DNA of 64,000 nt. Source: Glandiceps talaboti (lineage: Eukaryota > Hemichordata > Enteropneusta > Spengelidae). Numbering within the stretch: the first letter of the stretch is position 1; every line of letters begins with the position of its first letter. The notes beneath the pieces were generated by a model, which was not told the DNA's origin, did no database searches, and saw nothing but the letters and a program-made list of their open reading frames with translations. Below, in pieces: positions 6,356 to 61,285 of this stretch. Both the position numbers and the translations under genes were made by a program. The DNA lies in assembly GCF_964340395.1 (NCBI RefSeq), contig NC_135566.1:18976501-19040500 (forward strand), in the 5' to 3' direction.

Positions 6356-26074
<19,719 letters not shown>

Positions 26075-41294: not shown

Positions 41295-41454
41295 AAGAAC
41301 TGTGGAATCATGAGTGGAGGAGGAAGCAAACCATCTGGTTTTAGACCACCATCTAAAATAGCAAGGCCTCCAGCTCCAATTGGACTACCAAAACCAGTAC
41401 AACCAGGGGAAGTTGAAGATGCTATAGCACATTCTGCAATGGCTGTGGATGTGG
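41295..41454 (+). CDS. Candidate first coding exon of a CLIP-like CAP-Gly linker protein
   Basis: After an acceptor-like TTTTATATTTTAG, an ATG at 41310 opens a reading frame of 56 codons (stop TAG at 41478-41480) that starts MSGGGSKPSGFRPPSKIARP. The pattern 'KPSG(L/F)(K/R)(A/P)P(S/T)KI.(K/R)P' is how CLIP-170/CLIP1-type microtubule plus-end proteins begin, before their CAP-Gly domains. A possible donor, GTATGA, is at 41455. No CAP-Gly exon is seen downstream, so the rest would have to lie beyond the window with the decarboxylase genes inside an intron, or the exon is an orphan. It ends just before the segmental duplication starts (41.51 kb). Confidence 0.4.
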
Positions 41455-41510
41455 GTATGATGTCAACCGATGCAGCTTAGTACTTTCAATTCTTATCATT
41501 GTTCATGTCA

Positions 41511-41915
41511 TCTGTTTAAAATGGTCACAGCTGGCAATATTTATCGATAAGCTAATCCTCGCTCAGATCCAACACTTGCCCTGTATCACCCATTTCCAAC
41601 AGCATTGCAACACCACAGTGACGGCTGACCCTATTCACGTAGAATTGGCGCTTGCATCTCGGAAATTATTGGCCGTTTTCCACTCATATGCACCCAAGTT
41701 CGGTTGATCAAACTTCAGTAAGGTAATTATGATACCAGTAGCTAAGGCAATTACACATGAACTCTCTGATGCGAGAATGTACGTTGTTCAAAGCAAATGA
41801 TTAACTTCCAAAATAGCTGTGTTTTTTCACTGTTTACTGTTGATAATAGTCAATACATGAATTGAACAGGAAACCATATTTTCACACGTGTTTACCGAGG
41901 CCGAAAACGACAAAT
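41511..41915. repeat. Segmental duplication, unit 1 left part
   Basis: Nearly identical to 58955-59362, starting at TTTAAAATGGTCACAGCTGG and ending GAGGCCGAAAACGACAAATC. In unit 1 about 3.2 kb (41916-45165) separates this part from the rest of the duplicated DNA; in unit 2 the two parts are contiguous. Confidence 0.85.
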
Positions 41916-42075
41916 CAGTCTTCTAGTTCAAGTGTCGGTCTTCTAATTCAAGTGTCGGTCTTCTAATTCAAAAATCGGTCTTCTAATAATTCAAGTGTCG
42001 GTCTTCTAGTTCAAGTGTCGGTCTTCTAATTCAAGTGTCGGTCTTCTGGTTCAAGTGTCGCGTCCATCTTCTCAT
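41916..42075 (+). repeat. 20-bp tandem array, left arm
   Basis: About seven copies of GGTCTTCTAATTCAAGTGTC with small variants; followed by a spacer and an (ACTAT)n run at 42083-42124. The same unit appears in opposite orientation at 42727-42980. Confidence 0.9.
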
Positions 42076-42125
42076 TCAAAAGTTTACTATACTATACTAT
42101 ACTATACTATACTATACTATACTAG

Positions 42126-42726
42126 ACCAATGGGATCTCATGTGAGGATGTCCGGCTTTCGAGATATGTCTCACACTTGCACAACGTGTATCATCACATC
42201 ATGGCATCAGAAACTACTGTAGTTCCTGAAAATTTGATACTAGTCACTTTAGACATGGTATATATGTACACAAATACGTTGCAGTCTGACGCAATGCAGT
42301 CAGTTGTCAAAGCACTTGACTCGCCAGTTACACAAACAATCGACTGTAGCATTCCAAAATACAAAACCACAACCACCAGTGTATCTCCTAAAACTATTAT
42401 GTGATTCTCACGAAAACACATTAAAATTTAATGAAGAATTCTACACACAAACATGTGTATGTAGCATGGGCTCTTGGGCATCACCCGAAATAGCCAACAT
42501 AGCATTCCATGAACTGGAAAGTCGCATTATTGAAATCTACACGAATAAAATATCACTCTGGACACGTTTCAGGGATGACGTTTTCAAGATATCTTGTGGC
42601 ACCCAAGTCGAACTAAATAATCTGAGTGAAAAAATAAACCAAATACATCCAACTTTCACATTTTCGTTGGAAAGCTCAGATACGGAAGTAACATATCTTG
42701 ATCTTACAATCCACAAATGTCAATGG
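42126..42726 (+). mobile_element. Penelope-like reverse transcriptase fragment
   Basis: Two overlapping frames cover an RT core. The first (to about 42400) has ENLILVTLDMVYMYTNTL, matching 'ilvtiDv.slYTNip'. The second (42340-42717) has NEEFYTQTCVCSMGSWASPE for 'F.Q..G.aMGs..AP', then FRDDVF at the catalytic (Y/F)xDD, and SSDTEVTYLDLTIHK for 's...i.fLDl.i.k'. These are hallmarks of Penelope-like element RT. A frameshift joins the frames around 42345. No GIY-YIG endonuclease is present. The second frame runs on into the 20-bp array and stops after the first repeat. Confidence 0.7.
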
Positions 42727-42980
42727 CACCAAGACCGACACTTGAATTAGAAGACCGACACTTGAACTAGAAGACCGACACTTGAATTAGAAGACCGACA
42801 CTTGAATTAGAAGACCGACACTTGAACTAGAAGACCGACACTTGAATTAGAAGACCGACACTTGAACTAGAAGACCGACACTTGAATTAGAAGACCGACA
42901 CTTGAATTAGAAGACCGACACTTGAACTAGAAGACCGACACTTGAATTAGAAGACCGACACTTGAATTAGAAGACCGATT
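42727..42980 (-). repeat. 20-bp tandem array, right arm (inverted)
   Basis: About 13 copies of AAGACCGACACTTGAATTAG, the reverse complement of the left-arm unit at 41916-42075. The main variation is AATTAG versus AACTAG. Confidence 0.95.
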
Positions 42981-43009
42981 TGTCGTCATCAGCCACGGTA
43001 CGTGTTTCA

Positions 43010-45299: not shown

Positions 45300-45975
45300 T
45301 TTTTTGTAAGGGATTGACAGCCTCTACTCTACTACAAAGTGGAATGACAGCCTCTACTCTACTACAAAGTGGAATGACAGCCTCTACTCTACTGAAAAGT
45401 GGAATGGCAGCCTATACTCTACTAAAAAGTGGAATAACACCCTCTACTTTACTAAAAAGTGCAATGGCAGCCTCTAGTCTACTAACAAGTGGAATGGTAG
45501 CCTCTACTCTACTACTAAAAAGTGGAATAACAGCCTCTACGCTACCAAAAAATGCAATGACAGCCTCTACTCTATTAAAAAGTTCAATGACAGCCTATAC
45601 TACTAAAAAAGTGGAATGACAGCCTCTACTCTACTAAAAAGTGCAATGGCAGCCTATACTCTACTAAAAAGTGGAATGACAGCCTATACTACTAAAAAGT
45701 GGAATGACAGCTTCTACTCTACTAAAAAGTGCAATGACAGCCTCTACTCTACTGAAAAAGTGGAATGACAGCCTCTACTCTACTAAAACATGGAATGACA
45801 GCCTCTACTCTATTAAAATGTGCAATGGCAGCCTCTACTCTACTAAAACATGGAATGACAGCCTCTACTCTATTAAAAAGTGCAATGACAGCCTATGCTA
45901 CTAAAAAGTGGAATAACAGCCTTTAGTCTCCTAAAAATTGCAATGACAGCCTCAACACTACTAAAAAGTGGAATG
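45300..45975 (+). repeat. ~30-bp array (forward), unit 1
   Basis: About 22 copies of a ~30-bp unit, AATGACAGCCTCTACTCTAC followed by TAAAAAGTGG. Translation gives a repeating MTASTLLKSG peptide, but the array is shared with non-coding unit 2 and has frame breaks, so I do not call a gene. It faces the inverted array at 45985-46100. Confidence 0.9.
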
Positions 45976-45984
45976 GCATAGTAG

Positions 45985-46100
45985 CGGGTGTCGTTGTACT
46001 TTTGTGGTAAAGTAGTGGGTGTCATTGTATTATTGTGGTATAGTACAGGGTGTCATTGTATTATTGTGGTATAGTAAAGGGTGTCATTGTACTTTTTAAG
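45985..46100 (-). repeat. ~30-bp array (inverted), unit 1
   Basis: About four copies of AGTAGAGGGTGTCATTGTAC-type units, recognisable as the diverged reverse complement of the 45300-45975 unit (shared TGTCATT and TAGTAGAG). Ends 160 bp before decarboxylase B exon 1. Confidence 0.75.
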
Positions 46101-58955: not shown

Positions 58956-59499
58956 CATATGTTTAAAATTGTCACAGCTGGCAATATCTAGCAAAAGTTA
59001 ATCCTCGCTCAGATCCAACACTTGCCCTGTATCACCCATTTCCAACAGCATTGCAACAACACAGTGACGGCTGACCCTATTCACGTAGATTGGCGCTTGC
59101 ATCTCGGAAATTATTGGCCGTTTTCCACTCATATACACCCAAATTTGGTTGATCAAACTTCAGTAAGGTAATTATGATACCAGTAGCTAAGGCAATTACA
59201 CATGAACTCTCTGATGCGAGAATGTACGTTGTTCAAAGCAAATGATTAACTTCCAAAATAGCTGTGTTTTTTCACTGTTTACTGTTGATAATAGTCAATA
59301 CATGAATTGAACAGGAAACCATATTTTCACACGTGTTTACCGAGGCCGAAAACGACAAATCAAATGTCCTGTAGGGTTGGTCAACAGGGCAAGTTTTTTC
59401 CTAATTGGACAACCTAAACGCCCAATAGTAGCTCAAGGGGGCATATTTTGTCCTATAGGATCCTATAGGACAACTTGTGTCCTGTAGGGTTTTTAGTAA

Positions 59500-59790
59500 G
59501 GGATTGACAGCCTCTACTCTACTAAAAGGTGCAATGACAGCCTCTACTCTACTAAAAAGTGAAATGACAGCCTCTACTCTACTGAAAAGTGGAATGGCAG
59601 CCTCTACTCTACTCTACTCTACTGAAAAGTGAAATGACATCCTCTATTCTACTAAAAAGTGGAATGACAGCCTCTACTCTACTAGAAAGTGCAATGGCAG
59701 CCTATACTACTAAAAATGTGGGCTGACAGCCTTAAATCTGCTAAAAATTGCAATGGCAGCCTCAACACTACTAAAAAGTGGAATGGCACA
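59500..59790 (+). repeat. ~30-bp array (forward), unit 2
   Basis: About nine copies of the unit described at 45300-45975, including one ACTCTACTCTACTCTACT expansion. Confidence 0.9.
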
Positions 59791-59794
59791 GTAG

Positions 59795-61285
59795 CGGTTG
59801 TCATTGTACTTTTGTGGTATCGTAGAGGGTGCCATTGCACAATAGTGGAGGGTGTCATTGTACTGTTGTGGCTTAGTAGAGGATGGTGCTGGCCGAGCGG
59901 TTAGCTCGTACGTCTCTTACCTCTGCAGAAGGGTTTAAACCCGCCAGGTGTCAGCTGGGTTTGATTGAATTTACCACGATGTAAGTGTTACGGATGACAG
60001 AATACAACTTTTTAATATTCGCTAAGCTTTGATGTTTTGCTAGGTCACCGTGAACTCTCTGCTGTCATGAATTAATACTTAGAACAAATGTTTGCATTTC
60101 GCGAATAGTATTCTTCTAAGATGACAACATTAAGTTATTAAAAGATCGTTGATGTCAAATAATGACTGATTACAGACAGTTGGAAGAACGATGTCGTGAT
60201 CACATTGTTTAGCTAGTTTTCATATTTGTCAATATCATTTGCATTGAATTAAGGCGACGGCAATACTTCCGTTTTAGTCATTTATGGTGCTGATTATTTT
60301 ATTACCCAATCATTTGAGTATTGTATATTTTATGTTTATAAGAATTTAATGAAATAATAAAATTATGGATTCAGTCTTTGGGAAGAGTCGGTCTGAGACT
60401 AGGAGCTTCGATCTGCTCCGTGGCCGCCTTATAAATGATCCAGATTAACCATGAACATTGTGTGTAGTCTGAGCTAATTCCCTAAAAGTCCAAGTCGATC
60501 CCGTGTACAGAGTGGAGAGAGAGAGTAACATTGAAGGGGGTTACATTAACAGTAGAGGTAACCCCCCCCCCCAATTTGTTACATAAGTACGAAGAATTCA
60601 GTTTGACTCTACCATACAACGTAGGTTTCCCTGGGTACTCCGGTTTCCTGCTGCACTAACACTTACCCAAACGAGCCTATAAATGGGACTAGCCCCCGTT
60701 GGTTATCCGAAAACAAATAAACATCATTGTACGTTTGTGGTATACTAAAGGGTGCCATTGTATTTTTATGGTACAGTAGAGAATAACATTGTATTTTTTT
60801 GGTACAGTAGAGGGTGACATTGTACTTTTGTGTTATAGTAGAGGGTGTCATTGTACTATTGTGGTATTGTAGAGGGTGACATTGTACTTTTGTGGTATTG
60901 TAGAGGTGTCATTGTACTATTGTGGTATTGTAGAGGGTGTCATTGTACTCGGTACAGTGGAGGGTGACATTGTACTATTGTGGTATTGTAGAGGGTGTCA
61001 TTGTACTATTGTGGTATTGTAGAGGGTGACATTGTACTTTTGTGGTATTGTAGAGGTGTCATTGTACTATTGTGGTATTGTAGAGGGTGTCATTGTACTC
61101 GGTACAGTGGAGGGTGACATTGTACTATTGTGGTATTGTAGAGGGTGTCATTGTACTCGGAATAGTAGAGGGTGTCATTGTACTTTTGTGGTATAGTAGA
61201 GGGTGACATTGTACTATTGTGGTATTGTAGAGGGTGTCATTGTACTTTCGTAGTATAGTAAAGGGTGTCATTGTACATTTTAAGT
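59795..61285 (-). repeat. ~30-bp array (inverted), unit 2, split by an insertion
   Basis: GTAGAGGGTGTCATTGTACT-type units at 59795-59880 and 60722-61285 (about 20 copies), interrupted by the 840-bp SINE-bearing insertion. A ~125-bp block with a CTCGGTACAGTGG variant recurs, showing higher-order duplication. Array ends ~190 bp before decarboxylase C exon 1. Confidence 0.85.
59885..60710 (+). mobile_element. tRNA-derived SINE, split copy
   Basis: Head at 59885-59980: box A-like TGGCCGAGCGG, as in tRNA-Leu/Ser, then box B-like AGGGTTTAAACCC, then GGGTTTGATTGAATTTACC. Body at about 60595-60665 (AGGTTTCCCTGGGTACTCCG and CTGCTGCACTAAC) matches the SINE at 2863-3147 in the same orientation relative to its head. 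About 600 bp of unexplained DNA, including a C11 run, lies between head and body. Confidence 0.6.

Follow-up and report, generated by a model that had tools for sequence, protein, structure and literature searches.

A probable foldback-type DNA transposon with a captured Penelope-like reverse transcriptase fragment in Glandiceps talaboti

A repeat-bounded element of 1,108 bp in the genome of Glandiceps talaboti is, with high confidence, a non-autonomous cut-and-paste DNA transposon of the foldback structural type. The element spans positions 41893-43000 of the window, that is, of the whole 64,000-nucleotide stretch of DNA that was analysed, and carries in its middle a remnant of a reverse transcriptase (RT) of the Penelope type. 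Its striking structure is genuine, yet mobile DNA of this kind is known already: the element has the build of a foldback transposon and most likely works like one. What makes it distinctive among foldbacks is its ends, its double arrays and the captured Penelope fragment. The parts of the element, together with a remnant in the second unit of a segmental duplication in the window (unit 2), are as follows:

41887..41892, plus strand: left half of the target-site duplication, CGTGTT; identical 6 bp at 43001-43006
41893..41916, plus strand: left terminal inverted repeat, 24 bp, TACCGAGGCCGAAAACGACAAATC (TACCG...AAATC); 3 mismatches to the family pattern; inverse of 42977-43000
41917..42059, plus strand: left array, about seven units of GGTCTTCTARTTCAAGTGTC (unit matches and Tandem Repeats Finder)
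42085..42124, plus strand: inner array, 8 copies of the pentamer TACTA (tandem-repeat search)
42125..42730, plus strand: captured remnant of a Penelope-type RT, with a 5' start common to most aligned copies (Pfam and protein alignment)
42731..42976, minus strand: right array, inverted, 12 full units and a partial one (unit matches and Tandem Repeats Finder)
42977..43000, minus strand: right terminal inverted repeat; 1 mismatch to the family pattern
43001..43006, plus strand: right half of the target-site duplication, CGTGTT; exact 6-bp match to the left half
59332..59361, plus strand: insertion remnant in unit 2, consisting of the CGTGTT half and the left terminal repeat, which is intact; a deletion junction follows (alignment)

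With up to 3 mismatches allowed, the 20-bp unit has 6 matches at 41917-42059, along with a further copy that carries a small insertion, and 12 inverted matches at 42737-42976. These 18 matches in the window compare with none in 100 dinucleotide shuffles, and Tandem Repeats Finder gives copy numbers of 7.0 on the left and 12.4 on the right. The initial annotation had counted about seven units on the left, which is borne out, and about 13 on the right, where the inverted array is upheld and the count comes to 12 matches. The large inverted structure that it described also holds, as the arms 41893-42060 and 43000-42836 pair as inverted repeats at 89.9%; these arms also give one long hairpin when the element is folded as single-stranded DNA, in a prediction made with no shuffle control at the element's length. 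Its borders, placed at 41911 and 42990, need correction: the true ones are 41893 and 43000, with the CGTGTT duplication lying outside them. A degenerate 20-bp-like stretch follows the left array until about 42083, ahead of the TACTA pentamers, whose arrays stand inverted on two sides in many other family copies and of which the window copy has the left one. The element may sit in an intron, as about 430 bp upstream of the insertion lies a segment (41310-41457, MSGGGSKPSGFRPPSKIARPPAPIGLPKP...) which we take to be a possible first coding exon, CLIP-170-like. ARAGORN found no tRNA in the window, and Rfam gave no match at gathering threshold over 38000-64000.

The same structure recurs across the 590-Mb genome, where the exact 20-bp unit occurs 229 times in forward and 181 times in reverse orientation (reversed control: 0) and the terminal-repeat pattern, with up to 3 mismatches, has 91 and 69 matches (reversed control: 2 and 1). 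We read 41 loci, namely the window copy and two sets of 20 chosen among the matches listed, which form a non-random sample. Inverted 20-bp arrays, with at least two units per side, are present in 25 of the 41; in the other 16 the inverted array partner was not seen within the fetched stretch. The RT core occurs in 21 of the 41 loci overall and in 15 of the 25 with inverted arrays, so that the order array, RT, inverted array is indeed found elsewhere. Ten of the 25 are without the core (one of these, L019, retains an 18-codon RT scrap), and at L011, L018, L069 and L075 complete foldbacks were found in which RT was not detected. The genome search for the 20-bp unit, which had been proposed with the initial annotation, thus finds the arrays widespread without RT. 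The middle domain varies among loci: some hold the RT core, and others have arrays alone, a piece of Gypsy-type RNase H or different sequence.

Fixed-length target duplications are a mark of transposition by a DDE-type transposase. Exact flanking duplications of 5-7 bp were found at 18 of the 23 two-ended loci (15 of 6 bp, two of 7 bp and one of 5 bp); two others match at 5 of 6 positions, and L063, L064 and L072 show none. Among 506 mismatched flank pairings used as a control there were no exact 6-mers and 7 pairings that agreed at 5 or more of 6 positions. Two of the matches are weaker, since that of L066 lies in a simple repeat and that of L060 across a tandem triplication. At L063, L064 and L072 the ends repeat the outermost 15 bp of the terminal repeat in tandem. 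If the element is taken to begin at the farthest of these repeats, L064 gains an exact 7-bp duplication, GTTTTAA; L063 and L072, re-read in the same way, are still without one (2 of the 23 two-ended loci). These outer 15 bp (TACCGTGGCCGATGA-like) stand in tandem two or three times at some ends of L026, L063, L064 and L072. At L060 (C11:22658700-22666700), three segment copies spaced by about 3.37 kb each hold the element's left end with the same left flank.

The family also appears to have been active recently, as suggested by two near-identical copies at separate sites, L012 and L025, whose RT cores are identical and whose alignment of 2,517 columns contains 14 mismatches and 12 gaps; their duplications differ. 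Pairwise distances among 19 RT cores range from 0 to 0.08, the core nearest to the window copy being that of L062, at 0.027.

The RT noticed in the initial annotation is present. The stretch 42397-42726 matches Pfam RVT_1 with an E value of 3.9e-4 and a score of 20.6 bits, which falls short of the curated cut-off (29.6). The same genome encodes, at C9:1701236 (L082), a 762-aa open protein of the Penelope type with RVT_1 and GIY-YIG domains by Pfam. Aligned to this protein, the RT pieces of the window show identities of 40% over 80 aa (42397-42726) and 33% over 39 aa, and the Penelope label is thereby supported. A solved-structure search with the RT gave weak matches, among which retron RTs ranked first (E 3.7e-4), ahead of glycosidases and others. 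The two reading pieces of the window, 42207-42353 and 42397-42726, lie in different frames, and the remnant covers the RT middle only, with neither an N-terminal RT part nor a GIY-YIG domain; the core shared among copies is frame-broken and ends short of the GIY-YIG region. In most of 12 aligned copies the core begins at one point after the TACTA array, and it is cut or altered at that start in L014, L017 and L021. Coding constraint was not detected in a test that took in 12 of the 21 RT-bearing loci, where nonsynonymous changes make up 91 of 117 codon variants, the fraction expected under neutrality being 0.764 (p = 0.83); in the same 12 loci, 8 variants create a stop and gaps run over 1, 4, 5, 7, 8 and 10 columns. 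Judged by its sequence, the RT is a passenger, a dead Penelope-like fragment with no detectable coding constraint.

The initial annotation had proposed either a new composite with inverted array ends, which is right, or a Penelope-like relative with repeat termini. In the second case the inverted 20-bp arrays would be the terminal repeats of a Penelope-like retroelement whose own RT drives its mobility, and a core of Penelope type common to 21 of the 41 loci is what such an element would show. We consider this very unlikely, because the core is absent from 10 of the 25 inverted-array copies, because the RT has Penelope-type motifs as a fragment only, non-coding, with no intact frame, N-terminal part or GIY-YIG domain, and because the borders are of the DNA-transposon type, with exact 6-bp target duplications at 24-bp terminal inverted repeats. 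Moreover, those Penelope relatives that have long open frames (364-762 aa) among the scored matches of a genome-wide RT search share just 39% identity with the remnant. Less probable still is a local inverted duplication or hairpin that arose through satellite expansion and inversion, not transposition; unequal exchange and inversion alone could form the arrays, and the single strand does fold into one hairpin, but copies with the same termini are dispersed and bear locus-specific 6-bp duplications. Non-autonomous Helentrons have central arrays, and satellite-like arrays are reportedly present in the Helentrons of an oyster study, yet a Helentron or similar rolling-circle element with satellite arrays is the least credible reading here, given the terminal inverted repeats, the 6-bp duplications and arrays that are inverted at both ends as against a single central array. 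All three readings were rejected.

The genome-wide RT search scored 150 of 389 candidates. The best 24 scored matches (80-100% identity) comprise 13 copies that we read, 7 that lie between paired terminal-repeat matches (for example C9:1340868, C20:16524832 and C19:21589379) and 4 unplaced ones, at C17:23114827, C8:27643639, C6:21469205 and C13:3464664, the last with one terminal repeat nearby. Another 29 scored matches have the query span 17-101 in common at 70-72% identity. L027 and L028, which belong to these, have few 20-bp units (4) and TACTA arrays around the RT, and the terminal repeat was not seen in the stretch read. RT relatives outside the read copies indicate that the RT fragment is not confined to the foldback family. 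L027 and L028 have a long common flank (838 bp at 97.7%) and form a uniform repeat; some of the 29 matches lie near contig ends, e.g. C12:25022970 of 25030103. A further 19 matches to the RT fragment, at 60-69%, fall within C20:2.68-8.37 Mb as a local cluster of a diverged relative.

Unit 2 of the segmental duplication had been described as lacking the element. The bulk is indeed missing, but the left terminal repeat is retained at 59338-59361, where 24 bp are identical and the same three departures from the family pattern recur. Positions 58956-59345 match 41509-41900 at 96.9%, and 59325-59362 match 41880-41917 exactly, a span that takes in the left terminal repeat along with the duplication half. 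With this left end kept and homology to 45175 onward of the window beginning at 59367, unit 2 seems to derive by deletion from the same insertion; it is not an empty site but one that preserves the left terminus of that insertion. Since unit 2 has the duplication half and the left repeat with its private substitutions, the segmental duplication most likely postdates the insertion.

The initial annotation knew of no standard element with array-type inverted ends; this was mistaken, as foldback transposons have inverted termini with tandem units. In the sections drawn on here, foldbacks are described as having inverted termini with an outer part and inner tandem units of varying number (Tetris and Galileo: PMC4079207; Tm1: PMC3169594) and a variable or non-coding middle, as making target duplications and as being often non-autonomous (PMC4079207, PMC3169594). 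FB of D. melanogaster and sea urchin foldbacks are named there too (PMC4079207, PMC3169594; sea urchin: Liebermann 1983, cited in PMC4079207). Like these, the family in the window has terminal inverted repeats with tandem arrays, a variable middle, target duplications and dispersed copies. Unlike Tetris, Galileo, Tm1 and FB, it has TACCG..CGGTA ends, 20-bp arrays followed by TACTA arrays and a Penelope RT middle. Its 6-bp duplications also differ from the 8-10 bp given for Tetris of Drosophila (PMC4079207) and the 9 bp given for Tm1 of root-knot nematodes (PMC3169594).

Most foldbacks seem to be Mutator elements, with exceptions, according to the part of PMC4079207 consulted. The duplication lengths of Mutator and P elements do not agree with those of our family, in which 15 of the 18 exact duplications are of 6 bp and L064 adds one of 7 bp. 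Elements of the P class make duplications of 7-8 bp. IS3EU and GingerRoot elements are described with TA..TA termini and usually 6-bp duplications (PMC10045372), features that our family has as well; unlike them, it shows no integrase-type transposase in its examined frames, and foldback arrays are not mentioned for them in the portion of PMC10045372 cited. The TA..TA ends and 6-bp duplications fit the IS3EU/GingerRoot class rather than the Mutator-like foldbacks compared here. Polintons, which have a 6-bp duplication and genes for DNA polymerase B and an integrase, fit in duplication length, the one feature compared. A foldback architecture on 6-bp, TA..TA ends suggests that such architecture has originated in one more transposon class. 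Among the titles listed in a literature search, none refers to Penelope sequence in a foldback element, which does not prove absence in print. In this family a DNA transposon has plainly multiplied a dead piece of a retroelement, a situation by which RT-based annotation can be misled; satellites, too, can be seeded by the arrays that such elements spread, as was reported for Tetris.

One may picture the history of this foldback family as follows. A transposase supplied in trans would bind the termini and probably the 20-bp units too; the Penelope fragment would have entered once, in an ancestor, and then multiplied as a passenger; and the arrays would have expanded through tandem duplication of a subterminal motif. 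The last step draws on sister ends (L079-L081), which have the same terminal repeat and other interiors and continue with motifs like ATCGCTCTTCTATTT. Degenerate 20-mer relatives occur more than by chance in L080 (2 of 2000 resamples reach the observed value) and L081 (0 of 2000), and not in L079 (1772 of 2000); from their place inside the same terminal repeat in L080 and L081 we infer growth of the array from such a motif. The reason for this growth is likely to be the gain of added transposase-binding sites, by analogy with what is said of Galileo in the section consulted (PMC4079207). Similarity of units is 0.652 within an element against 0.598 between elements, a value reached in 40 of 10,000 permutations. 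Of 113 rare variants, however, just 2 are common to the two arms, and homogenisation of the arms is therefore at most weak. Subsequent losses would have removed the right TACTA array and the 3' portion of the RT core from the window copy, and everything except the left end from the neighbouring segmental copy.

No intact transposase was found in the family. Pfam gave no integrase-type match in the frames of L013 (5), L015 (3), L059 (10), L014 (2) and L062, L068 and L079 (1 each), and no transposase at all in the scanned frames of L013 and L015, two long copies of 7.9 kb and about 7.2 kb; the frames of seven further loci were inspected by eye only. The interior of L014 holds a Gypsy-type RNase H frame, and L083, the interior beside the sister end L081, neither shows an obvious gene on inspection by eye nor significantly matches the frames of L059. 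This last locus is an 8.1-kb copy enclosed by termini of the family; its 20-bp arrays have 12 and 7 units, and its duplication matches at 5 of 6 positions. Its minus-strand frames contain, in order, an OTU-like piece (our own reading, unreported by Pfam), a DUF6589-like piece (E 0.0039, below cut-off) and further pieces. The gene is broken and present as a single copy at 100%, and the only inner inverted pairs found there (28 nt at 75% and 20 nt at 90%) do not bracket it whole. Two of its pieces keep their order in relatives at about 45% identity, one of which has a 2240-aa open frame on C7 that ends in a cysteine-rich stretch, read as CXC-like; the family terminal repeat was not seen in the 1 kb beyond this frame. 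An endonuclease-type frame of L059 looks like a nested non-LTR piece. A solved-structure search with an L059 piece returned nothing, and a literature search for DUF6589 found no papers. The DUF6589-like gene is a weak candidate for the mobiliser. We hold it possible, though doubtful, that L059 is a decayed autonomous parent and that the OTU-like and DUF6589-like protein is a candidate transposase of a TA..TA, 6-bp lineage with foldback arrays; if this were true, the DUF6589 family would gain a function. The family termini with their arrays, the 5-of-6 duplication, the inner pairs and the conserved order of the two pieces speak for this reading; the broken state and single copy of the gene, the DUF6589 match below cut-off and the C7 relative speak against it.

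Other repeats were seen in the window. Facing arrays of a 30/31-bp unit, first forward GGAATGACAGCCTCTACTCTACTAAAAAGT and then inverted-type TGGTATAGTAGAGGGTGTCATTGTACTATTG, are present in two copies, at 45311-46093 and 59501-61281; plus-strand matches between the two are mostly at 80-87%, and 45329-45888 matches 61287-60724 in inverse at 70%. These facing arrays are possibly a second foldback-type element, and an inverted-repeat search inside each region gave a short palindrome only. Between the two arrays of unit 2, at 59886-59960, tRNA-like box A/B words (TGGCCGAGCGGTTAG ... GGTTTAAACCC) are perhaps those of a tRNA-derived SINE, recognised by eye with ARAGORN and Rfam negative. Finally, 17260-22109 is a 4.85-kb minisatellite with a 37-bp unit and a 111-bp higher-order period.
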